From Lachnospiraceae bacterium (GTDB lineage Bacteria > Bacillota > Clostridia > Lachnospirales > Lachnospiraceae): a stretch of 34,192 bases of DNA. The DNA lies in the NCBI GenBank assembly GCA_024681775.1, contig JAILAF010000009.1, positions 1 to 34,192 on the forward strand, written 5' to 3'. A model generated the notes under the pieces. The model saw only the letters and a program-made list of their open reading frames with translations, ran no database searches and had not been told where the DNA came from. This document shows positions 4,585 to 26,114 of this stretch, piece by piece. A program made the position numbers and the translations under genes. Each line of letters starts with the position of its first letter. The stretch's first letter is position 1.

Positions 4585-4609
4585 GCGCCCGTCCAAACCG
4601 GACGGGCGC
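4585..4609 (-). terminator. Stem-loop terminator downstream of the SPFH gene
   Basis: A perfect 10-bp stem (GCGCCCGTCC / GGACGGGCGC) with a 5-base loop lies 25 bases after the SPFH stop codon and 21 bases before the pcrA start. The T-run on the minus strand is weak (ATTCTTAT), so some read-through into pcrA is likely. Confidence 0.65.
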
Positions 4610-4634
4610 ACAAACGTCATCTCAAATCCGAAAC

Positions 4635-6975: not shown

Positions 6976-7269
6976 ATGAACGACAAGTTACAAAACGATT
7001 CCGTCGATTTTCTCTTTGATGCGATCCTGCAACTGCGGACACGGGAAGAATGCTATTCCTTCTTTGAGGATCTGTGTACGGTAAAGGAACTGCAGAGCAT
7101 GTCACAGCGCATGGAAGTGGCTGCAATGCTCACTGGAAACGAGACCTACCTGACCATTGCCTCCAAGACGGGAGCATCCACCGCCACCATCAGCAGAGTA
7201 AACCGTTCCCTCGCTTACGGTAAGGACGGATACAAGCTCGTGCTGGACCGGATGAATGAGCTCGAATAA
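6976..7269 (+). CDS. TrpR-like DNA-binding protein of the YerC/YecD family
   Basis: A 97-residue all-helical protein with the TrpR/YerC fold: LCTVKELQSMSQRMEVAAML, then a helix-turn-helix (TYLTIASKTGASTATISRVN) and SLAYGKDGYKLVL. Length matches the family. The ATG at 6976 is chosen because AGGGGG lies six bases upstream; in-frame codons back to 6910 overlap the promoter. In Bacillus, yerC sits near pcrA, and here pcrA is 2.4 kb away, a loose echo of that order. Ligand and targets are unknown; tryptophan sensing should not be assumed. A hairpin overlapping its stop codon ends the transcript. Confidence 0.85.
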   Translation: MNDKLQNDSVDFLFDAILQLRTREECYSFFEDLCTVKELQSMSQRMEVAAMLTGNETYLTIASKTGASTATISRVNRSLAYGKDGYKLVLDRMNELE

Positions 7270-7286
7270 GCCCAAAGGGCTTATTC
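7264..7286 (+). terminator. Terminator overlapping the YerC-like stop codon
   Basis: GAATAAGCCC-AAA-GGGCTTATTC is a perfect 10-bp stem containing the TAA stop codon (7267-7269). The following tract is CTTTC rather than a long T-run, so termination may be partial; a second terminator follows at 7350. Confidence 0.6.
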
Positions 7287-7299
7287 CTTTCAAATGCTG

Positions 7300-7326
7300 A
7301 CAATAGAGCGCACAGCGGTCTATTGT
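7300..7326. repeat. Stem-loop of the conserved-loop family (member C)
   Basis: ACAATAGA / TCTATTGT forms a perfect 8-bp stem around an 11-base loop, GCGCACAGCGG. The loop has the same length and start as those at 7942-7952 (GCGCACAAACG) and 13433-13443 (GCGCATCAACG), although the stem sequence is unrelated. It lies between two convergent genes and has no T-run. Confidence 0.5.
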
Positions 7327-7349
7327 AGAGGAAAAATAAGGAGCACAGG

Positions 7350-7386
7350 AAAAGAGCTGCCCACACCCGTGGACAGCTCTTTTTTG
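7350..7386. terminator. Bidirectional terminator between the YerC-like gene and the bactofilin gene
   Basis: AAAGAGCTG-C-CCAC / GTGG-A-CAGCTCTTT is a 13-bp stem with one mismatch and a 4-base loop, flanked by A and T runs so it can act on both strands. It lies 10 bases after the bactofilin stop. Confidence 0.8.
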
Positions 7387-7395
7387 CGTTCTGTT

Positions 7396-7911
7396 TTATT
7401 CTTCGGAAGAGAGGCTCTCTGCCGAAACCGCATCGACCGTCTCGGTGCCCATGCCTTCCTTCTCTTCCTCATCCCGGACCTCCTGCAGAGCGGCTGCCAC
7501 CGCTGCGGCTGCGGAGCGCTTCCCGTTCCTGGCTGCCTTGCGGTATACGGCCTTGCGGCGGTTCTGATGGTCGGGAACCTCCTGGTTCATATTGCAGCTT
7601 CCCTGGAAGATGGCATGTTCATCGATAACAATGGACTCGGTGTTCACATCTCCGATGACTCTGGCGGTAGCGGTGATCTCCACCTTGCGCTGAGCTGTCA
7701 CATTTCCGTTGACCTCGCCGCCGATGATGGCGGCTTCCGCCTGAATATTACCGCTGATGACGGCTGCGGTGCCCAGGACCAGAGTCCCCTCCACCGTCAC
7801 ATCCCCATTGACACATCCGTCGATCCGCGCGGAATCCGGTGCAGAAAAATCGCCGTCCAGTACGGCACCCTTGCCGATCAGCGTCGTGATCCTAATCTCC
7901 TGTTTCTTCAT
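7396..7911 (-). CDS. Bactofilin (polymer-forming cytoskeletal protein)
   Basis: A 171-residue bactofilin. The core (about 10-108) is a right-handed beta-helix with the repeating pattern ISGNIQAEAAIIGGEVNGNV and GDVNTESIVIDEHAIFQGS; bactofilins assemble into nucleotide-free filaments that position cell-wall enzymes. The 60-residue C-terminal tail is charged and low complexity (NRRKAVYRKAARNGKRSAAAA, then acidic). The start is the ATG at 7911, seven bases after GAGGAG; an ATG two codons earlier is too close. It follows the LytM-domain gene by 65 bases with a hairpin between (7929-7965). Bactofilin beside an M23/LytM gene is a known pairing in cell-shape systems, for example Helicobacter ccmA with csd1. 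Confidence 0.9.
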   Translation of the reverse strand: MKKQEIRITTLIGKGAVLDGDFSAPDSARIDGCVNGDVTVEGTLVLGTAAVISGNIQAEAAIIGGEVNGNVTAQRKVEITATARVIGDVNTESIVIDEHAIFQGSCNMNQEVPDHQNRRKAVYRKAARNGKRSAAAAVAAALQEVRDEEEKEGMGTETVDAVSAESLSSEE

Positions 7912-7928
7912 TGACATTCTCCTCTTTT

Positions 7929-7965
7929 GTTTGAAAGAAAAGCGCACAAACGTTTTCTTTCAAAT
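7929..7965. repeat. Stem-loop of the conserved-loop family (member A)
   Basis: GTTTGAAAG-AAAA / TTTT-CTTTCAAA(T) forms a stem of about 12 bp around the 11-base loop GCGCACAAACG. It lies between the LytM and bactofilin genes, just before the bactofilin ribosome site. The copy at 13419-13457 has the same stem with one extra base inserted on each arm (T and G, a wobble pair), which supports a selected structure. Confidence 0.65.
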
Positions 7966-7976
7966 CCCCCTCAATC

Positions 7977-8714
7977 TTATCCGTTGATGGACAGCTCGTC
8001 CATCGGACTGATGTACTCACCCTCAAACATCATCTCATAAACCAGCTTGTGCTTTTTGTCGGAAATGACGAACAGGGTATTGCCCCGGGATACGCTCTCC
8101 CCTTCCTTCACCATCACATCGTCCGCATTGCGGTAGATGGTAATATAGCCGTTCCCGTGATCGATGGTGACGCAGTGACCATAGGTCTCGTCGTCCTCGA
8201 TGGATGTCACGACGCCGGCTGCGGAAGCAACCACCGCCGTACCGGCGGAAGCGGTAAAGATCAGGATCGGATGATCCTCATCGAACTCTTCCATGGAAGC
8301 GGAACTGGTCAGCGGGAACTCCGTAGGCACGGACTGGGAATTGATGGTCTCCGTCAGCTCTGCCTCGGCTGCAACCTTGGTATTCACGGTATCACTGAGG
8401 ATCTGAACCTCTCCCTGAAGAGAGTTGATGGTGGACTGGAGGGAAAGATTCTCCTCCTCCATGGCGGAGATCAGGTTGCCCTGCTCTGCGATCATATCCT
8501 GGTATACCGTCTCACGGTCCTTCTGAAGATAGAACAAACCCACCATGACGCCCAGAAAAACACTGAGTGTCAGAATCAGAATCCAGGAAACGACAGGGTG
8601 AAAAGTCATGGGCTTCACCTCAGCGTCTACTGCACTGGTGGTCATGATCATCAGATGCTGTGTCTTGCGACGATGCTTCTTTTGCTTTAAGGAAATCTGA
8701 TAAGAAGTTTCCAT
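7977..8714 (-). CDS. Membrane protein with coiled coil and degenerate LytM/M23 domain
   Basis: A 245-residue protein. A basic cytosolic N-terminus (KQKKHRRK) leads to one transmembrane helix (about 43-63), an extracellular coiled coil (65-125) and an M23/LytM-like domain (150-240). The domain keeps the fold signature (GTAVVASAAGVVTSIEDDETYG, TIDHGNGYITIY, VKEGESVSRGNTL) but not the zinc ligands: the HxxxD region is replaced by sequence around HPILIFTASAG, YAHL reads YRNA, and the HxH near the end reads YEM. It is therefore probably not a hydrolase but a regulator or scaffold, like the degenerate LytM factors EnvC and NlpD. The ATG at 8714 follows GGGAGG by six bases. It precedes the bactofilin gene in one operon. 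Confidence 0.85.
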   Translation of the reverse strand: METSYQISLKQKKHRRKTQHLMIMTTSAVDAEVKPMTFHPVVSWILILTLSVFLGVMVGLFYLQKDRETVYQDMIAEQGNLISAMEEENLSLQSTINSLQGEVQILSDTVNTKVAAEAELTETINSQSVPTEFPLTSSASMEEFDEDHPILIFTASAGTAVVASAAGVVTSIEDDETYGHCVTIDHGNGYITIYRNADDVMVKEGESVSRGNTLFVISDKKHKLVYEMMFEGEYISPMDELSING

Positions 8715-8756
8715 AACATACCTCCCAAATACCATTTATGACACTGGTGCCTTGTC

Positions 8757-8785
8757 ATAGTAACACATGGGATAAAAATATGCAA
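8757..8785 (-). promoter_or_regulatory. SigmaA promoter of the LytM-bactofilin operon
   Basis: Minus strand TTGCAT (8785-8780), 17-base spacer, TACTAT (8762-8757). The start codon is about 43 bases downstream. Confidence 0.65.
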
Positions 8786-8809
8786 CAAATAGTTAATATT
8801 TTTGTAATA

Positions 8810-8822
8810 TGTTTTGAAAACA
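8810..8822. promoter_or_regulatory. Palindrome upstream of the LytM-bactofilin promoter
   Basis: TGTTTTGAAAACA is a perfect 13-mer palindrome about 25 bases upstream of the -35 box. It shares the core GTTTTGAAAAC with the palindrome at the DUF1836 promoter (6794-6808). It could be a shared operator. Confidence 0.35.
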
Positions 8823-8829
8823 GGTGTGA

Positions 8830-9606
8830 CTAAACCTCACAAAACCGCGCTATTTCTGCAAAGTTCAGATTTCCGCCATAGATGTCAAGTGCGCTCCCCA
8901 CAGTGACATGGATCCTGTTCTTTCCCAGTTCCTTCAAGGCTTTCAGGTCATCCATGCTGTGCACGCCACCCGCATAAGTCACGGGAGACCGCTCCCAGTC
9001 TGACAAAAGGCTTACCAGAGCCCCTTCGATGCCACCACTCTTCCCCTCCACATCCACTGCGTGGATCAAATATTCGTCACAACTGTCAGAAAGATCTTCC
9101 AGCAATTTTAGGTTGACATAAGTCTTCGTTTCTTTCTGCCAACGGTCTGTCACAATGACATAACCGTCCTCCTTTTTGCGGCAGCTTAAATCCAGCACCA
9201 AATGCTCTTTTCCAACGGCTTTCACCATTTCTGACAGACGTTCCGGGTCCATTTTTCCGTCCCGAAAAACATAGGAAGTGACGATTACATGGGAGGCTCC
9301 CGCTCTTAAAAATTCCTCCGCATTGTCCGGACGGATGCCGCCTCCTGCCTGGAGGCCGCCGGGGTAAGCCCGCAAGGCCGCAAGGGCCTGGGCCTTCGTT
9401 GCTTCGTAGTGCTCGCTGGAGGCGGGATTGAGCAGGATCACATGGCCTCCCTTAAGGTGGTGCTCCGCAAAGAGGCGGGCATACGCCTCCGCCCCCTTTT
9501 CCGAAACAAAATTGTCCAGGGCGGCATCCCCCTCATCCTTGAGAGAGCTTCCCACGATCTGCTTTACTTTTCCGTTGTGGATATCGATACAGGGTCTGAA
9601 TTGCAT
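8830..9606 (-). CDS. hisA: Phosphoribosylformimino-AICAR-P isomerase, eukaryotic HIS6-type HisA
   Basis: A 258-residue TIM-barrel enzyme for the fourth step of histidine synthesis (ProFAR to PRFAR). It does not look like ordinary bacterial HisA but like yeast His6: FRPCIDIHNGKVKQIVG, QAGGGIRPDN, HVIVTSYVF, LVLDLSCRKKEDGYVIVTDR, EYLIHAVDVEGKSGGI, VTYAGGVHSMDDL and GSALDIYGGNL all have close equivalents in His6. The catalytic aspartates are plausibly in CIDIH and HAVDVEG. A strong AAGGAG precedes the ATG. The gene stands alone, with no other his genes in the window, just downstream of the dapB terminator. This class has been noted in a few bacteria and attributed to transfer. Confidence 0.85.
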   Translation of the reverse strand: MQFRPCIDIHNGKVKQIVGSSLKDEGDAALDNFVSEKGAEAYARLFAEHHLKGGHVILLNPASSEHYEATKAQALAALRAYPGGLQAGGGIRPDNAEEFLRAGASHVIVTSYVFRDGKMDPERLSEMVKAVGKEHLVLDLSCRKKEDGYVIVTDRWQKETKTYVNLKLLEDLSDSCDEYLIHAVDVEGKSGGIEGALVSLLSDWERSPVTYAGGVHSMDDLKALKELGKNRIHVTVGSALDIYGGNLNFAEIARFCEV

Positions 9607-9629
9607 GGACTTACTCCTTGTAATGCAAA

Positions 9630-9663
9630 AGAGGACTCCGAAACGAATCGTTCCGAGTCCTCT
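9630..9663 (-). terminator. Terminator after dapB, close upstream of hisA
   Basis: AGAGGACTC / GAGTCCTCT is a 9-bp stem with partial inner pairing, followed on the minus strand by TTTTGC. It ends dapA-dapB and lies only 24 bases before the hisA start codon, leaving little room for a separate promoter. Confidence 0.7.
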
Positions 9664-9685
9664 CGTTTTATCTGCACTTTTGCAC

Positions 9686-10441
9686 TTAACCGATCACATC
9701 GCTCATATTATAGAGGCCGGGCGCCTTCCCTACCAGGAACTGGGCTGCGCTGATGGCGCCTCTTGCGAATACAGCTCGGGAATATGCTCTGTGGGAGAAG
9801 GTGATGACCTCATCCTGTCCGGCAAAGATCACATCATGATCCCCTACGATGCTGCCGCCGCGGATGGCGGAGATACCGATCTCCTCCTTGGGTCTCTTCA
9901 TCCGTCTGCCGGTGCGGTCGTAGACATACTGGTACTTCTCGGGCAGGGCATCGTTGATGGCATTTGCCAGGGCGTAAGCCGTGCCGCTGGGAGCGTCCAG
10001 CTTGCGGTTGTGATGCTTCTCCACGATCTCGATATCGAATCCCGCAGGATCCAGGACAGCCGTAGCCTCCTTCAGGAGCTTCATCAAAAGGTTGATCCCC
10101 AGGCTCATGTTAGCGCTCATGAGGATCGCCACCTTGGTGGAACAGACTCTCAATTTGGAGATCTGGTCATCGCTGAGGCCGGTGGTGCACAGAACCAGCG
10201 GGATCCCGCGGTCCACACACTCGTCCAGGAGCCCGTCCAGCGCTACCACATTGGAAAAATCAATGATGACATCCGCATCCACTCTGCAATCCGCAATGTT
10301 GGAAAAAACGGGGTATTGATTGTGTCCGTCGTCAAAGGCATCCACACCGGCCACGATCTCCACATCATCCATCTCGTCGATCATCGCGGTGATGGTACGT
10401 CCCATACGGCCGTTACAGCCGTGCATGATCACTCTGGTCAT
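9686..10441 (-). CDS. dapB: 4-hydroxy-tetrahydrodipicolinate reductase
   Basis: A 251-residue NAD(P)H-dependent reductase of the diaminopimelate/lysine pathway, second enzyme after DapA. The nucleotide-binding loop is GCNGRMGR near the N-terminus; the substrate and catalytic segment is EKHHNRKLDAPSGTA, with IGISAIRGGSIVGDH further on. The ATG at 10441 follows TAAGGAGGGGAG. It lies 23 bases after the dapA stop, so the two form an operon that supplies diaminopimelate for the cell wall. Length is normal. Confidence 0.95.
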   Translation of the reverse strand: MTRVIMHGCNGRMGRTITAMIDEMDDVEIVAGVDAFDDGHNQYPVFSNIADCRVDADVIIDFSNVVALDGLLDECVDRGIPLVLCTTGLSDDQISKLRVCSTKVAILMSANMSLGINLLMKLLKEATAVLDPAGFDIEIVEKHHNRKLDAPSGTAYALANAINDALPEKYQYVYDRTGRRMKRPKEEIGISAIRGGSIVGDHDVIFAGQDEVITFSHRAYSRAVFARGAISAAQFLVGKAPGLYNMSDVIG

Positions 10442-10464
10442 AAAACTCCCCTCCTTATTCCGCA

Positions 10465-11349
10465 TTAAAGTACGCCGTAGTCCTTCATCGCCTTCGTCAG
10501 GCGCTCGACATTCGCAGGCTCCATCTCCGTCAGCGGCATACGAAGGGTTCCGCCGCACACGCCCTGAAGCTCCAGCGCCTTCTTCACGGGGATGGGATTG
10601 ACCTCACAGAACAGCGCCTTCACCAGCTCAATGGCTTCCAGCTGCATCCTGCAGCTCTCCTTCACATCGCCATCCAGGTACTTCTGACAGATCTCGTGGG
10701 TCTGTCTGGGGGCCACATTGGCGAGTACGGAGATCACACCCTTGCCGCCCAGGCTCATGATGGGAACGATCTCATCATCGTTGCCGGAGTAGATATCCAG
10801 CATGCCGTGGGTCAGAGACGCGAGCTCAGCCACCTGGCTGATGTTGCCGCTGGCTTCCTTCACACCTACGATATTGGGCACATCCTTCGCAAGTCTTGCG
10901 ATGGTGGCGGGCTGGATGTTGCAGCCGGTTCGGCTGGGAACATTGTACAGGATCACGGGGATATGAATGGACTCCGCCGTCGCCTTGAAGTGCTGATACA
11001 GGCCGTTCTGGGTGGCCTTGTTGTAGTAGGGGCTCACCAGCAGGACGCCGTCCGCACCGTATTTTTCCGCCTCCTGGGACAGGTAGATGGCAGTCTCGGT
11101 GCAGTTGGAGCCGGTACCCGCGATCACGGGGATGCGGCCATTCACCACCTCGATGCAGAAACGAACGGTCTCCAGGTGCTCCTCATGGCTCTGGGTCGCC
11201 GCCTCACCGGTGGTGCCGCAGACGATGATGGCATCGGTGCCACCCTCGATCTGGATCTCGATCAGTTTACGAAACGCTTCAAAATCTACAGAACCGTCCT
11301 CCTTCATGGGAGTGACGATCGCTACTCCGGAACCGGTAAATAATGCCAT
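10465..11349 (-). CDS. dapA: 4-hydroxy-tetrahydrodipicolinate synthase
   Basis: A 294-residue TIM-barrel aldolase that condenses pyruvate with aspartate semialdehyde. Visible features: TGSGVAIVTPM at the start, GTTGEAATQ, the catalytic tyrosine in ILYNVPSRTG, the Schiff-base lysine in GVKEASGN and YSGNDDEI. The ATG at 11349 has AAGGAGGAAG upstream; in-frame codons further back overlap the promoter. No lysine riboswitch is seen in the short leader. It heads the dapA-dapB operon. Confidence 0.96.
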   Translation of the reverse strand: MALFTGSGVAIVTPMKEDGSVDFEAFRKLIEIQIEGGTDAIIVCGTTGEAATQSHEEHLETVRFCIEVVNGRIPVIAGTGSNCTETAIYLSQEAEKYGADGVLLVSPYYNKATQNGLYQHFKATAESIHIPVILYNVPSRTGCNIQPATIARLAKDVPNIVGVKEASGNISQVAELASLTHGMLDIYSGNDDEIVPIMSLGGKGVISVLANVAPRQTHEICQKYLDGDVKESCRMQLEAIELVKALFCEVNPIPVKKALELQGVCGGTLRMPLTEMEPANVERLTKAMKDYGVL

Positions 11350-11422
11350 GAATCCTTCCTCCTTATGGATCATGGTGAGGGGAAATGCAAAGATATTCCC
11401 ACTCATCCGATAAATCACGGTA

Positions 11423-11451
11423 ATTATAACAAACGAAAGTGTGCTTGGCAA
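11423..11451 (-). promoter_or_regulatory. SigmaA promoter for dapA
   Basis: Minus strand TTGCCA (11451-11446), 17-base spacer, TATAAT (11428-11423). The leader is about 65 bases. The -35 box abuts the inverted repeat at 11450-11471. Confidence 0.8.
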
Positions 11452-11471
11452 TAATGCGGAAACGCATTATT
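11450..11471. promoter_or_regulatory. Perfect inverted repeat next to the dapA -35 box
   Basis: AATAATGCG-GAAA-CGCATTATT has 9-bp arms. It lies 4 bases after the typA stop and overlaps the dapA -35 by two bases. It lacks a T-run on the minus strand, so it is either a weak typA terminator or a binding site controlling dapA. Confidence 0.5.
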
Positions 11472-11475
11472 TCCC

Positions 11476-13308
11476 TTAATTGCTAAAGCCTGCGCGCTTT
11501 CGAAGACGGGGATCCAGGATTTTTTTACGGATCCGCAGATTGGAGGGGGTCACCTCCAGAAGCTCGTCGGTATCGATGAAGTCCAGCGCCTGCTCCAGGG
11601 AAAGGATCCTGGGGGGAACCAGGCGCAGCGCCTCGTCCGCACTGGAAGAACGGGTGTTGGTCAGCTGCTTTTTCTTGCAGACATTGATCTCGATGTCCTC
11701 GGACTTTCCGGTCTGCCCTACCACCATGCCGGCGTAGACCTTCTCGCCGGGGCCGATGAAGAGGGTCCCGCGCTCCTGCGCATTGAACAGGCCGTAGGTG
11801 ATGGCTTCGCCGGGCTCAAAAGCGATGAGGCTTCCCTGCTTCCGGTACTGGATATCTCCCTTGTAGGGCGCATAGCCGTCAAATACGGTATTCAGGATAC
11901 CGTTGCCCTTGGTATCCGTCATGAATTCCCCGCGGTAGCCGATGAGGCCTCTGGCGGGAATGGAAAACTCCAGTCTGGTATAAGTGCCGCCGGAAATGCT
12001 GCCCATATTCCGCAGCTCACCCTTCCGTGCCCCCAGCTTCTCGATGACCGCACCGGCGTAGTCGTTGGGTACGTCGATGTAGGCCAGCTCCATGGGCTCC
12101 GTCTTTTTGCCGTTCTCATCTTCATGATAGAGAACCTCTGCCTTGGATACGGCGAATTCATAGCCCTCTCTGCGCATGGTCTCGATGAGGACGGACAGAT
12201 GGAGCTCGCCTCTGCCTGAGACCTTAAAGCGGTCCATATCCTCCGTCTCCTCCACCCGAAGAGAAACATCCGTGTTCAGCTCACGGAACAGACGCTCTCT
12301 GATGTGACGGCTGGTGACATATTTTCCTTCCTGTCCTGCCAGAGGGCTGTCATTGACCATAAAGTCCATGGCGATGGTGGGCTCGGAGATCTTCTGGAAA
12401 GGAATGGGCTCTACCGCATCGGGGCTGCACAGGGTATCGCCGATGTGCAGATCAGAGATGCCGCTGATGGCAACGATGGAGCCGATGCCCGCCTCCCGGA
12501 CCTCCACTTTGTTCAGGCCGTCAAACTCGTACAGCTTGCTGACCTTGGTCTTGATCAGTTTGTCGGGCTCGTGGTGATTGCAGATCACCACCTCCTGGTT
12601 CACGCTGATGGTGCCGTTGTCCACCTTACCGACGCCGATCCGTCCCACATACTCATTGTAATCGATGGTGGAGATCAGCACCTGGGTCCCTGCTTCGGGA
12701 TCTCCCTCGGGTGCGGGGATGTAGTCCAGGATGGTCTCAAAAAGCGGCTCCATGTCGGTGCCGGGGGTGCTTGCATCCAGGCTGGCGACGCCGGTCTTGG
12801 CAGAGGCATAGACAAAGGGGCAGTCCAGCTGGGAGTCGTCCGCATCCAGCTCCAGAAACAGCTCCAGCACCTCATCCACCACCTCGTCGGGTCTGGCCTC
12901 GGGCCGGTCGATCTTGTTGATGCACACGATGACGGGGAGCTTCAGCTCCAGCGCCTTGCGCAACACGAATTTGGTCTGGGGCATGGCGCCCTCAAAAGCA
13001 TCCACCACCAGGATGACGCCGTTGACCATCTTCAGGACACGCTCCACCTCGCCGCCGAAATCCGCGTGGCCCGGGGTGTCGATGATGTTGATCTTGGTAT
13101 TTTTGTAGGTGACTGCAGTGTTCTTGGACAGGATGGTGATACCGCGCTCCCGCTCCAGATCGTTGGAGTCCATGACGCGCTCCGCCACCTCCTGATTCTC
13201 ACGGAACACACCGGACTGCTTTAACAGCTCGTCCACAAGGGTGGTCTTCCCATGATCGACATGGGCGATGATCGCTACGTTTCTTACGTCTTCTCTCTTC
13301 TGAATCAT
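11476..13308 (-). CDS. typA: Ribosome-associated GTPase TypA/BipA
   Basis: A 610-residue translational GTPase of the EF-G/LepA class that binds the 70S ribosome and supports ribosome assembly and growth under stress or cold. Motifs: [10 protein letters not shown] (G1), RERGITI (G2), DTPGHADF (G3), NKID (G4). Domains II, III and V follow, with the TypA-specific C-terminus ([38 protein letters not shown]). The ATG at 13308 follows CGGAGG by eight bases. The 179-base gap to recN consists largely of hairpins (13325-13457) and forms the typA leader if transcription starts upstream. Confidence 0.96.
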
Positions 13309-13324
13309 TTTTTCATCCTCCGAC

Positions 13325-13457
13325 GCCTGCAAATTTCATTTGCAGGCTCTTGAGGAGAAAACTGCGAATGCAGTTTCTCCGATAAGATCATGCAGTTTTG
13401 CCATCCGGCAAAACTGACGTTTGAAAGTAAAAGCGCATCAACGTTTTGCTTTCAAAC
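13325..13457 (-). ncRNA. Four-hairpin structured leader upstream of typA
   Basis: Four stem-loops stand in a row between recN and typA. In minus-strand order they are: H1 at 13457-13419 (GTTTGAAAG...CTTTCAAAC, about 14 bp, loop of the GCGCA family); H2 at 13416-13393 (CAGTTTTGCC-GGAT-GGCAAAACTG, 10 bp perfect); H3 at 13380-13354 (GGAGAAACTGC / GCAGTTTTCTCC, 11 bp with one bulge); and H4 at 13347-13325 (GCCTGCAAAT-GAA-ATTTGCAGGC, 10 bp perfect). None has a T-run. The 3' arms of H2 and H3 share AAAACTGC / GCAGTTTT and could pair with each other instead. The typA ribosome site lies just after H4. It may be a regulatory leader or a composite repeat. Confidence 0.55.
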
Positions 13458-13487
13458 AAATCTCCTCACATCTCAAGCGAGCGTTTT

Positions 13488-15164
13488 TCAGATTTTGCTC
13501 TTCGCCGCCTGCATCTTCATCTCGCGGGCATTTTCCAGCGCAGCCTCGGTGATCGTATCCGCCCCCAGGAGTCTGGCCAGTTCCGCAAGACTTTCCTCTT
13601 CACTCGCGGGATGGACCCCGGTGCTGGTGGAGCCCCCCTCAGAGGTTTTTTCGATGATGTAATGGGAATCCGCCATTGCGGCGATCTGGGGCAGATGGGT
13701 GATACAGATCACCTGATGGGCCCGGGATACCTTCCCCAGCTGGGTGCTGACCTTCCATGCGGTCTTGCCGCTGATGCCCGCATCGATCTCGTCAAAGATC
13801 AGGGCATCGCACCCGTCTCTCCCTGCAAGCACTGTTTTCACCGCCAGCATGATACGGGAAAGTTCACCGCCGCTGGCCACATTCTGCAACGGTTTTCTGG
13901 GCTCTCCGGGATTCACGGAAATGCGGAACTCCACATCATCCGCGCCCTTGCTTCCCATGGGAGCTTCCTCCACGGCGATCTCGAAATCCACCGCATCGAA
14001 ATTCAGCTCGGACAGCGCAGCGGAAAGTTCCTTCTCCAGCGCCTTCGCCCTGGCCCTGCGCACCGCGGTGAGCTTCCCGCAGAGGGAGGCCTGCTCGGCC
14101 TTCGCGGCGGAGAGCTTGCTACGGAGCTTCTCCAGGTAGGCGTCGTAATCCTCGAACCTCGCCAGGGATTCCCTGCATTTTGCCCCATACGCCAGCACTT
14201 CCTCGATGGTGCGGCCGTATTTGTCCTTCAGACGGTTCACCAGATCCAGGCGATCCTGCACCGTCCGAAAGGCGTCCTCGTCGAACTCCGCATCCGACAG
14301 ATAGGATGAGATGCTGCGGTTAAAATCCGCCAGCAGATCCTCTGCCTGCAGCAGCAGCTCTTCCTGCTCATGAAGCCTGTCATCATAGGCGGTGACCACC
14401 CGCAGACTCCGCAGTGCCCTGGAAACCTGCTCTGCCGCGGAATCCTCTCCCACACCGGTGTCCCGGTAGCACTCTCCCAGGCCTTCCAGAATCTGACGGG
14501 AATTCACCATCCTGCGGTAGTCCCGCTCCAGCTCCTCGTCCTCACCGGGAACGAGATGCGCTTCCTCGATCTCCCTGCATTCAAATTCCGCCAGGCTCTG
14601 CTCCCTGCTTAAGGCGTCCGTGTCCTTCTCCTCGCCGGCCAGTTCCGCCTCCAGATCCGCCACCAGACGGTAGGCACTGCGCACCTGCTCCGGAAGATTG
14701 CCCTCTTCCTCCGCGCCGTACTGGTCCAGGATCTCCAGGTGGGAGCTTTTGTGCAGCAGGGTCTCGCTCTCATGCTGACCATGGACGGTAATGAGCTCGG
14801 AAGCCAGGCTTTTCAGCTGTTTGGTGGTGACACTCTCGCCGTTGATCCGGCAGGAGCTCCTGCCGGGGGAAAACTTGCGGCTGATGATGACCAGGCCATC
14901 CTCCGGAGGGTCCAGATCCATCTCAGCCATGGCCTCCCTTAAGGTCTCGCTCTCGGAACGGAAGACCAGCTCTACCTGCGCGGTGTCCGCGCCGTGACGC
15001 AGCATCCCGGGATCAAAGCGATCTCCCAGCGCCAGTCCCACAGAGCCCATGAGGAGGCTCTTGCCTGCGCCGGTCTCACCCGTCAGGATGTTGAGACCGG
15101 GCCCGAAACGGGCCTCGGCGTCCTCCATCAGTGCCAGATTTTTGACATGAATACTTTCTAACAT
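13488..15164 (-). CDS. recN: DNA repair protein RecN
   Basis: A 558-residue SMC-like ATPase that acts early in double-strand break repair. The N-terminal ATPase half has LTGETGAGKSLL, a central coiled coil spans roughly 150-360, and the C-terminal half has ASGGELSRIMLA (signature) and IFDEIDAGISG (Walker B) followed by ITHLPQIA. The ATG at 15164 follows AAGGAG by seven bases. It is the last gene of the asp23-recN operon and lies 57 bases after argR, as in Bacillus. In sporeformers recN is usually followed by spoIVB and spo0A; here typA follows. Confidence 0.96.
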   Translation of the reverse strand: MLESIHVKNLALMEDAEARFGPGLNILTGETGAGKSLLMGSVGLALGDRFDPGMLRHGADTAQVELVFRSESETLREAMAEMDLDPPEDGLVIISRKFSPGRSSCRINGESVTTKQLKSLASELITVHGQHESETLLHKSSHLEILDQYGAEEEGNLPEQVRSAYRLVADLEAELAGEEKDTDALSREQSLAEFECREIEEAHLVPGEDEELERDYRRMVNSRQILEGLGECYRDTGVGEDSAAEQVSRALRSLRVVTAYDDRLHEQEELLLQAEDLLADFNRSISSYLSDAEFDEDAFRTVQDRLDLVNRLKDKYGRTIEEVLAYGAKCRESLARFEDYDAYLEKLRSKLSAAKAEQASLCGKLTAVRRARAKALEKELSAALSELNFDAVDFEIAVEEAPMGSKGADDVEFRISVNPGEPRKPLQNVASGGELSRIMLAVKTVLAGRDGCDALIFDEIDAGISGKTAWKVSTQLGKVSRAHQVICITHLPQIAAMADSHYIIEKTSEGGSTSTGVHPASEEESLAELARLLGADTITEAALENAREMKMQAAKSKI

Positions 15165-25789: not shown

Positions 25790-25892
25790 ATGGGAAGCAC
25801 CCCTGCCCGGGCACTCCTGCAGAAATGTCAGCTTCTTTGATTAAAGATGCCGATGCTCTGCACAAACCATATCCGCGTGGTCTGCAGCTTAC

Positions 25893-26098
25893 GATTACAG
25901 GCAGGTCTCCTGGCTCGGATCTCTGCGCCGGATCAATACCTTCCCGGGATATCCCAGTGGCCTGCCTGCCACGGCAGTCATGTCCGGCTCCTTCCATACA
26001 GTGACGGGATCGCGCAGGCCTCGCACCTGCTTCCCTATTCTCCGGAACGGAAATCGCTAAAGCGACCGGCAACCGCCCCGGCACCTGTAACTCCTGAT
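25893..26098 (-). promoter_or_regulatory. Cobalamin riboswitch
   Basis: On the minus strand the stretch has the landmark blocks of the AdoCbl/cobalamin aptamer in order: CAGGTGCC near 26088, GGGAAGCAGGTG, the GCGATCCCGTCACTGTA segment and the B12 box GCCAGGAGACCTGCC near 25900-25914. The end of the aptamer is about 150 bases before the DUF4430 start codon. A CTGCA...TGCAG hairpin lies just downstream and may belong to the expression platform. Confidence 0.93.
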
Positions 26099-26114
26099 TT
26101 GACGAAACGTGGCT

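Follow-up and report, generated by a model that had tools for sequence, protein, structure and literature searches.

A dispersed pseudoknotted RNA element of Lachnospiraceae that appears to be mobile and to target ribosome-binding sites

Results

Two copies of the element in the window

We analysed a 34,192-nt stretch of DNA from a Lachnospiraceae bacterium (contig JAILAF010000009.1, here the window), in which two intergenic regions carry a structured element made up of hairpins that we call A, B, C and, in some copies, D. A full copy lies upstream of bipA, and a short copy upstream of a bactofilin gene. Both are read on the minus strand, which is sense to bactofilin and bipA, and both are flanked by Shine-Dalgarno (SD) or SD-like motifs. 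The window corresponds to contig C96 of a genome of 2.9 Mb in 143 contigs (G000), which looks like a metagenome-assembled genome. Its closest sampled relative is a sister species (G003), whose BipA is 100% and bactofilin 89% identical. The features below were read from sequence and fold and scored with two covariance models, R1 for hairpin A and R2, which was built from other genera only.

13309 to 13457, minus strand: full element copy, sense to bipA (typA), between recN and bipA; R2 match of 42.7 bits, E 8e-9
13462 to 13467, minus strand: left SD-like copy GAGGAG, immediately 5' of hairpin A of the bipA copy; register as in the family
13419 to 13457, minus strand: hairpin A of the bipA copy, with a 13-bp outer stem carrying a C/A insertion, a CGU-UGAU-GCG inner stem and a bulged C; R1 46.5 bits
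13393 to 13416, minus strand: hairpin B of the bipA copy, CAGTTTTGCC-GGAT-GGCAAAACTG; from sequence and fold
13354 to 13380, minus strand: hairpin C of the bipA copy, GGAGAAACTGC-ATTC-GCAGTTTTCTCC; from sequence, the minimum-energy fold giving a different outer stem
13325 to 13347, minus strand: extra hairpin D of the bipA copy, GCCTGCAAAT-GAA-ATTTGCAGGC; from sequence and fold, also in the sister-species copy (x_C46)
13317 to 13321, minus strand: right SD GGAGG of bipA, whose start codon is at 13306-13308
7966 to 7972, minus strand: left SD GAGGGGG of the bactofilin copy; the native SD of bactofilin, also read at the unoccupied site in the sister species
7929 to 7965, minus strand: hairpin A, the only hairpin of the short copy that lies between the genes for the M23 peptidase and bactofilin; R1 52.1 bits
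7919 to 7924, minus strand: right SD GAGGAG of the bactofilin copy, preceding the start codon at 7909-7911

The region 13300-13490 folded with a z-score of -5.5. R2 aligned with the bactofilin copy at hairpin-A positions only (E 8e-4). Since this model matched both window copies, the two groups into which the copies were divided (24 in group 1 and 79 in group 2, 103 in all) represent one family. An SD-like motif was also read by eye at the equivalent bipA position in congeners without the element.

A first-pass annotation of the window had described three hairpins (7300-7326, 7929-7965 and 13419-13457) around a common 11-base loop, with a further occurrence of the 11-mer at 4606-4616. The three hairpins are indeed there; their stems measure 8, 13 and 14 bp, and each of them encloses an 11-base segment that begins GCGCA. 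The strand read by that annotation was the wrong one, and the hairpin alone is not the whole unit: the sense fold is on the minus strand, where the supposed loop comprises an inner stem, a tetraloop and a bulge, and where hairpin A merely opens, at the 5' side, a larger unit with a pseudoknot, distinguished chiefly by its position in ribosome-binding sites. The extra T and G that had been taken for a paired insertion in the third hairpin are present, but they form a U.G pair on the plus strand and a C.A mismatch on the minus strand, and they are absent from the orthologous sister-species copy.

The 11-mer had been thought unexpected by chance. Allowing one mismatch, it matched the window twice where 0.37 matches would be expected, and two matches were reached in 4 of 100 shuffles, so that by itself it stands near chance level. 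Genome-wide, GCGCAYMAACG had 11 matches, nine of them outside hairpins (stem 0-2 bp), and a stem was found only in the two window hairpins; a loosened 14-mer gave 47 matches. Hairpins that share a common short GC-rich loop merely by chance would fit 7300-7326 and 4606, and both were rejected as family members. The former had no R1 match even at E<=10, and unrelated sequence occupies its place in the sister species; the latter, although an exact 11-mer match, marks the edge of a terminator hairpin, and no more than 2 bp of stem enclose it. For the hairpins at 7929 and 13419, which do belong to the family, chance is refuted by the model matches, the covariation and exact 37-nt copies at several loci and in another genus, and we give it next to no weight as a general explanation. 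The idea of a mobile hairpin repeat likewise stands for these two hairpins, given 14 filled and empty sites, and falls for the other two, and that of a conserved loop on changing scaffolds stands for the same pair.

Two further structures were noted in the window. Next to the unrelated 8-bp GCGCA hairpin at 7300-7326, 3' of a TrpR-like gene, there is a 10-bp hairpin (7264-7286), and neither is found at the sister-species locus. A cobalamin riboswitch lies at 25883-26100 on the minus strand (Rfam RF00174, 91 bits).

Hairpin A

The family form of hairpin A is GUUUGAAAGAAAA-CGC-UGAU-GCG-C-UUUUCUUUCAAAC, in which the UGAU loop is closed by an inner stem of 3 bp, and a bulged C separates this from the 13-bp outer stem. 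Among 93 full-length hairpins, the UGAU loop was present in 76 and the bulged C in 83. In the window copies, CGU lies opposite GCG, so that a U.G pair on the minus strand corresponds to A.C, a mismatch, on the plus strand. The whole hairpin TTTGAAAG...CTTTCAAA with the family loop occurs at six places in the window genome and three in G003, whereas matches to TTTGAAAG...CTTTCAAA in five of the other 38 relatives enclose unrelated loops. Identical 37-nt copies of hairpin A precede unrelated genes within one genome, and also occur in another genus (L306).

The check suggested by the first-pass annotation, a covariance model, was run and located the hairpin in the window genome and its sister, with a structure far above chance. 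R1 was built from six sequences with ends chosen by hand, in which 10 of 16 pairs covary. Over 98 sources it returned 82 matches, 46 of them distinct, in which 15 of the 16 pairs change on both sides and 98.8% of cells pair; no measure was reached by any of 500 shuffles, on an alignment that was fitted to the model and is therefore biased towards R1. Among 31 congeners, R1 found at least 14 places at E<1e-5 in the window genome and at least nine at E<1e-4 in G003. The best E value among the candidates scored in the remaining 29 sampled congeners was 0.0084, and that on other-species loci (45 sources: 36 of 80 loci and nine others) was 0.067.

A larger element with a pseudoknot

Many copies continue past hairpin A with two additional hairpins, beyond which lie a gene's SD and start codon. 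The layout in copies from other genera is hairpin A (GTGTGAAAAATCACACTGATGTGCTGATTTTTCACAC), hairpin B (GGCTATTTGTG-CCGGAGCGT-CACAAATAGCC), hairpin C, the strand ACGCTCCGG, AATGGAGATTA and the start codon. On the sense strand the element thus spans ~125-160 nt (124-158 nt in group-2 copies) and consists of hairpins A, B and C and a pseudoknot, in which the B loop is complementary to the strand ACGCTCCGG just 5' of the SD. When each B loop was scored against its own strand, the pairing score was 1314, compared with 991 for permuted partners (sd 31.5, maximum 1112 of 5000, z 10.3), and reversed B loops scored 930. This test used those copies, 60 of 100, in which a B hairpin of 22-33 nt could be delimited; a cruder version with poorly delimited loops was likewise above chance (1200 versus 1102, sd 21).

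Covariation was then examined in a MAFFT alignment that was not fitted to any structure. It contained 59 of 60 references, L330 being left out for its group-1-like layout, and was judged against a 42-pair structure drawn by hand on row L314. Covariation was found in 34 of the 42 pairs, including all nine of the pseudoknot, with 95.3% of cells pairing and 0 of 500 shuffles reaching this level. RNAalifold, a method that cannot draw pseudoknots, independently recovered hairpins A, B and C. In A, B and the pseudoknot, G.U outnumbered A.C by 85 to 13, and this excess favours the sense RNA as the folded molecule.

Copies differ in their modules, and we found A only, A+C, A+B+C and forms with the extra hairpin D. 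In one G003 copy (L063 3160-3354, minus strand), hairpin C is tandemly duplicated with a 12-bp flank, CAGGGAATAATG, in between, which hints at how modules multiply. Head-to-tail runs, in which the SD end adjoins another copy or a remnant, were observed at L356, L385, L311, L383 and L389.

Rfam 15, run on the window and on sets of seven and 20 loci, gave no match to the element at the gathering threshold. A weak microRNA match overlaps the element in L063 (31.6 bits, threshold 90). As a separate observation, a Clostridiales-1 RNA (RF01699, 118 bits) lies at L060:3080-3247 on the minus strand, ~40 nt upstream of the glgP copy, and L330 holds two weaker, sub-threshold Clostridiales-1 matches.

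A fold of this kind beside a start codon could also be a host cis-regulatory RNA of the riboswitch or leader type, in which pairing of the B loop with the SD-adjacent strand would be the ON state and pairing of that strand with the SD the OFF state. The pseudoknot strand ends immediately 5' of the SD and covaries at nine of nine pairs, a gene begins just past the SD in 59 of 61 copies, and a conserved RNA fold does stand beside an expression signal. In 48 of 59 copies the strand could instead form at least 4 bp with the SD region, a count that has no chance control and is suggestive only, and a 4-bp pairing easily arises by chance. Against such a regulator, the genes behind the copies (argF, glgP, purC, an SSF transporter gene, glnA, cysS, neuB, yhbY and a pectinesterase gene) form no related regulon, near-identical copies are dispersed within a genome, and of the 19 sites 14 are occupied in only one of the two sister species. 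We consider a host regulatory role unlikely as the explanation of the family.

Filled and empty sites

The 24 copies kept from G000 and G003 occupy 19 sites. Five sites, judged by eye from flank similarity, are common to both species (bipA, an ABC transporter gene, yhbY, an aminotransferase gene and one more). At the other 14 the element is present in one species and absent from the aligned partner. Nine of these are filled in G000 (bactofilin, argF, glgP, purC, neuB, the SSF transporter, an ABC substrate-binding protein and two others) and five in G003 (glnA, cysS, an rpiR-type regulator, pectinesterase and a DUF6492 protein). The element therefore appears, from the sequences compared, to be mobile, and we infer that the polymorphism reflects gain by transposition.

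Aligned to the empty site, the left and right flanks of the filled site share 11 bp at argF and 18 bp at cysS, with mismatches. Upstream of bipA, the element was present in two of the 26 congeners with a readable region (G000 and G003); two more regions were unparsed and two were cut by a contig end. In the next closest congener, the contig (G019:C82; L131, L304) ends 8 nt upstream of bipA, at the would-be element position. The 15 downstream genes of G000 and G003 copies that were assigned with Pfam belong to unrelated families.

A fixed register to the ribosome-binding site

In the 20 nt before hairpin A, GGAG occurs in a fixed register, with the element beginning ~4 nt 3' of the SD. The left flanks of the 79 group-2 copies carry G at -8 (62%), -7 (71%) and -5 (62%), T at -2 (70%) and A at -1 (77%); those of the 24 group-1 copies carry T at -1 (75%). 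An SD-like motif was found in the last 16 nt of 62 of the 79 group-2 flanks, compared with 12-20 in windows further upstream, and in 16 of the 24 group-1 flanks, compared with 3-6 in controls. At the other end, an open reading frame (ORF) of at least 50 codons begins 7-18 nt past the right SD in 59 of 61 group-2 copies, and in the two exceptions (L356 and L385) another copy of the element follows.

The two flanks of a copy also resemble each other. The left flank scored 496 against its own right flank, compared with 414.6 for permuted partners (sd 12.7, 0 of 5000). Permuting only within genomes (56 copies, 14 genomes) gave 449 versus 412.7 (sd 10.2, maximum 445), again 0 of 5000. This comparison and the start-codon count were restricted to the 61 of 79 group-2 copies whose right end could be parsed by pattern. 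For the 24 G000 and G003 copies the permutation value was 0.0002, to which chance matches in coding sequence contributed in part (C96bac, x_C37). Examples are AACGGAGAATA on either side of L339 and AATCGGGGTAAAA on either side of L323. The duplicated segment is ~11 bp long and includes the SD, and it was not seen in every copy. Copy-specific similarity of the SD regions, together with the overlaps at argF and cysS, is what a target-site duplication leaves behind.

A short, structured, dispersed and modular sequence with an apparent duplication of ~11 bp might equally be a miniature inverted-repeat transposable element (MITE) or a BOX-like composite repeat, moved by the DDE transposase of a resident insertion sequence. 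The ends of the element, however, form no terminal inverted repeats: in 59 group-2 copies they shared 7.2 of 20 positions, compared with 7.4 after shuffling. Since the definition of a MITE requires such repeats (PMC3049150), the element is not a MITE in the strict sense, and an origin of this general type seems to us improbable.

A putative leader reading frame

Positions 3-5 of hairpin A, 6 nt past the left SD, read GTG, TTG, ATG or CTG in 88 of 103 copies. The frame that starts there is open for at least 20 codons in 80 of the 103; the remaining two frames reach that length in 14 of 206 cases, and shuffled sequences in 31%. A six-codon upstream ORF (MFERKR) of group 1 was dropped in favour of this frame, which is common to both groups.

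Occurrence

R1 matched 28 of 348 genomes of the family (~7-8%), a count that includes two genomes (G172, G211) whose matches look unrelated by eye. Across the order, R2 matched 29 of 392 genomes; 24 of these belong to the window's family and five to one other family. In a sample of the class it matched three of 391, all of them from the window's family. Many sampled genomes are fragmented; an assembly artefact is made less likely by one R2-positive genome of 4.5 Mb in two contigs. Copy numbers are minimum values, as 150, 19 or seven first-look candidates were scored per genome depending on the search. R2 adds two G000 copies outside the R1 list (C34:24168-24308 and C135:26855-26997).

For the copy sets, 60 further places were fetched from the family-wide R1 matches. 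We dropped, before counting, the weak G000 and G003 matches o_C103b, x_C47, x_C65 and x_C61, the loci L328 and L331 (from G211 and G172; no loop motif by eye) and L305, L310 and L327, which were cut by contig ends; the matches of L305 and L310 were re-fetched as L333 and L338. Four of 107 copies were then removed as duplicates or for too little downstream sequence, which left 103.

Exact patterns had no match in viral contigs. A group-1 copy matched nothing in plasmid and phage collections, and a group-2 sequence nothing in the plasmid collection. In the phage collection the group-2 sequence matched three unannotated 'Bacteriophage sp.' contigs at 77-78%; records of this kind with similar sequence are the loci L393 and L422 (MT838414.1, MT836788.1). 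MT838414.1, the one contig examined, encodes MBOAT and Tex proteins and looks like a piece of bacterial DNA.

Discussion

The most probable explanation of these observations, in our assessment, is a non-autonomous mobile element that targets ribosome-binding sites (RBSs) and leaves the gene an SD, and whose sense transcript would be a conserved pseudoknotted RNA. Its structure and covariation, the filled and empty sites, the RBS register, the orientation and the similarity of the SD regions are evident from the sequences, from which we infer everything said here about function. The element would insert between the SD and the start codon, ~4 nt 3' of GGAG and in sense orientation, and insertion would duplicate ~11 bp including the SD (inexactly, 11 and 18 bp at the two sites compared). 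The resulting order would be SD copy 1, the element (A, B, C and pseudoknot strand), SD copy 2 and the start codon. As the downstream gene keeps an SD, insertion would be tolerated inside operons. SD copy 1 may drive the leader ORF from the xTG in hairpin A, so that ribosomes could cross the element, and such translation would limit polarity. The pseudoknot beside SD copy 2 might tune initiation; an effect of the element on translation is plausible. Mobilisation would be due to an enzyme acting in trans that recognises the folded element.

Several points weigh against this explanation or limit its support. Helix C shows no G.U excess (G.U 10, A.C 13), and the leader ORF bears no clear mark of purifying selection (nonsynonymous to synonymous ratio 0.83, compared with 0.67 and 0.96 in the other frames). 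A looser scan for orientation lacked specificity: with equal 210-nt windows (n=103), the sense count was 97 and the antisense count 22, and an upstream control stretch reached 55. Genuine repeats of at least 12 bp flank only three of the 24 G000 and G003 copies (two exact, of 12 and 15 bp, and one imperfect, of 18 bp), and the left repeats of C16b, L311, L383 and L389 could instead represent the right end of a tandem copy that once stood there. Three of the 14 partner gaps (C93, x_C67, x_C43) hold 51-81 nt of other sequence, and part of the polymorphic sites could be precise losses between repeats. The copies are related, so the permutation and shuffle figures overstate their independence. A search for an IS200-like Y1 transposase (PF01797) had no match in G000 and G003, the two copy-bearing genomes it covered, at assembly completeness of 92% and 89%; reverse transcriptases (RTs) and other transposases were not tested. 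Apparent targeting of RBSs could also be survival bias, against which the fixed register argues.

The Y1 transposases bear on a further possibility, that hairpin A is a repetitive extragenic palindrome (REP) moved by a REP-associated tyrosine transposase (RAYT) or IS200-like enzyme through a hairpin with an extrahelical base. Hairpin A does have a loop of four nucleotides and a bulged base that is mostly conserved, and its copies are dispersed between genes. Nine of 31 congeners have a Y1 transposase, yet the two copy-bearing ones do not. The element has no GTAG foot, its left flank ending mostly in TA (group 2) or T (group 1), and it measures ~130 nt, with three hairpins and a pseudoknot. A duplication of the SD region is not expected of REP/IS200 systems. 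We regard this origin as very unlikely.

As a more speculative form of the mobile-element explanation, to which we assign a low probability, the element could be a bacterial counterpart of short interspersed nuclear elements (SINEs): a geneless, pseudoknotted RNA of ~130 nt, reverse-transcribed in trans by a host or resident RT and recognising SD sites, perhaps through an anti-SD segment of its own, with variable target duplications of 11-18 bp and no terminal inverted repeats. If so, the element would domesticate its site by regenerating the RBS and supplying a well-spaced leader start codon.

Our literature search, with most subscription papers and all preprints outside it, found no report of the element and no mobile element described with the RBS as its address. 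A dispersed pseudoknotted RNA that lacks an Rfam 15 match and occurs in ~7-8% of the sampled family genomes merits description in itself. The address is unusual, in that the SD is split from the start codon and an SD nevertheless stands again beside it. An element that targets RBSs would offer an example, open to testing, of mobile DNA that has adapted to residing within operons and does not silence them, as well as a possible source of new 5' leaders and a lead towards a mobilising enzyme with RBS specificity.

Among known systems, mobile group II introns are structured RNA mobile elements with orientation-specific target recognition, and the intron 5' end is GUGYG. Many group-2 copies of the element begin GUGUG. 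The element differs in its size of ~130 nt, in having no RT of its own and in its apparent target duplication; in the sets of seven and 20 loci no Rfam group II match fell on it, and neither a domain V nor an intron-encoded RT placed it among these introns. The GUGUG match is probably a coincidence, because the 5' end of the element varies together with its pairing partner.

An RNA fold is also a property of bcr1, one of the bcr repeats of the Bacillus cereus group. These are 100-400 bp long with features of mobile DNA, and bcr1 reaches up to 130 copies per genome (PMC6542083). As far as the available part of that source goes, their mobility is tied to a TTTAT motif, they belong to one species group and no RBS targeting is mentioned. 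REP/RAYT systems share with the element dispersed hairpins whose stems change in a complementary way between subfamilies; in the sections available (PMC3733652), REPs are 20-40 bp long with a GTAG or CGTC foot and a RAYT, unlike the multi-hairpin, pseudoknotted element, which has no GTAG foot and no Y1 enzyme in G000 or G003. The BOX elements of Streptococcus pneumoniae, compared here by description, are described in streptococci, and the accessible text mentions no RBS register, SD-region duplication or pseudoknot (PMC3049150). According to the same text, they are viewed as parasitic and likely to affect co-transcribed genes, and some large ones encode ORFs. Like the element, they are dispersed, modular (boxA-boxB-boxC) and predicted to fold when transcribed. 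BOX and bcr repeats are its nearest analogues in character.

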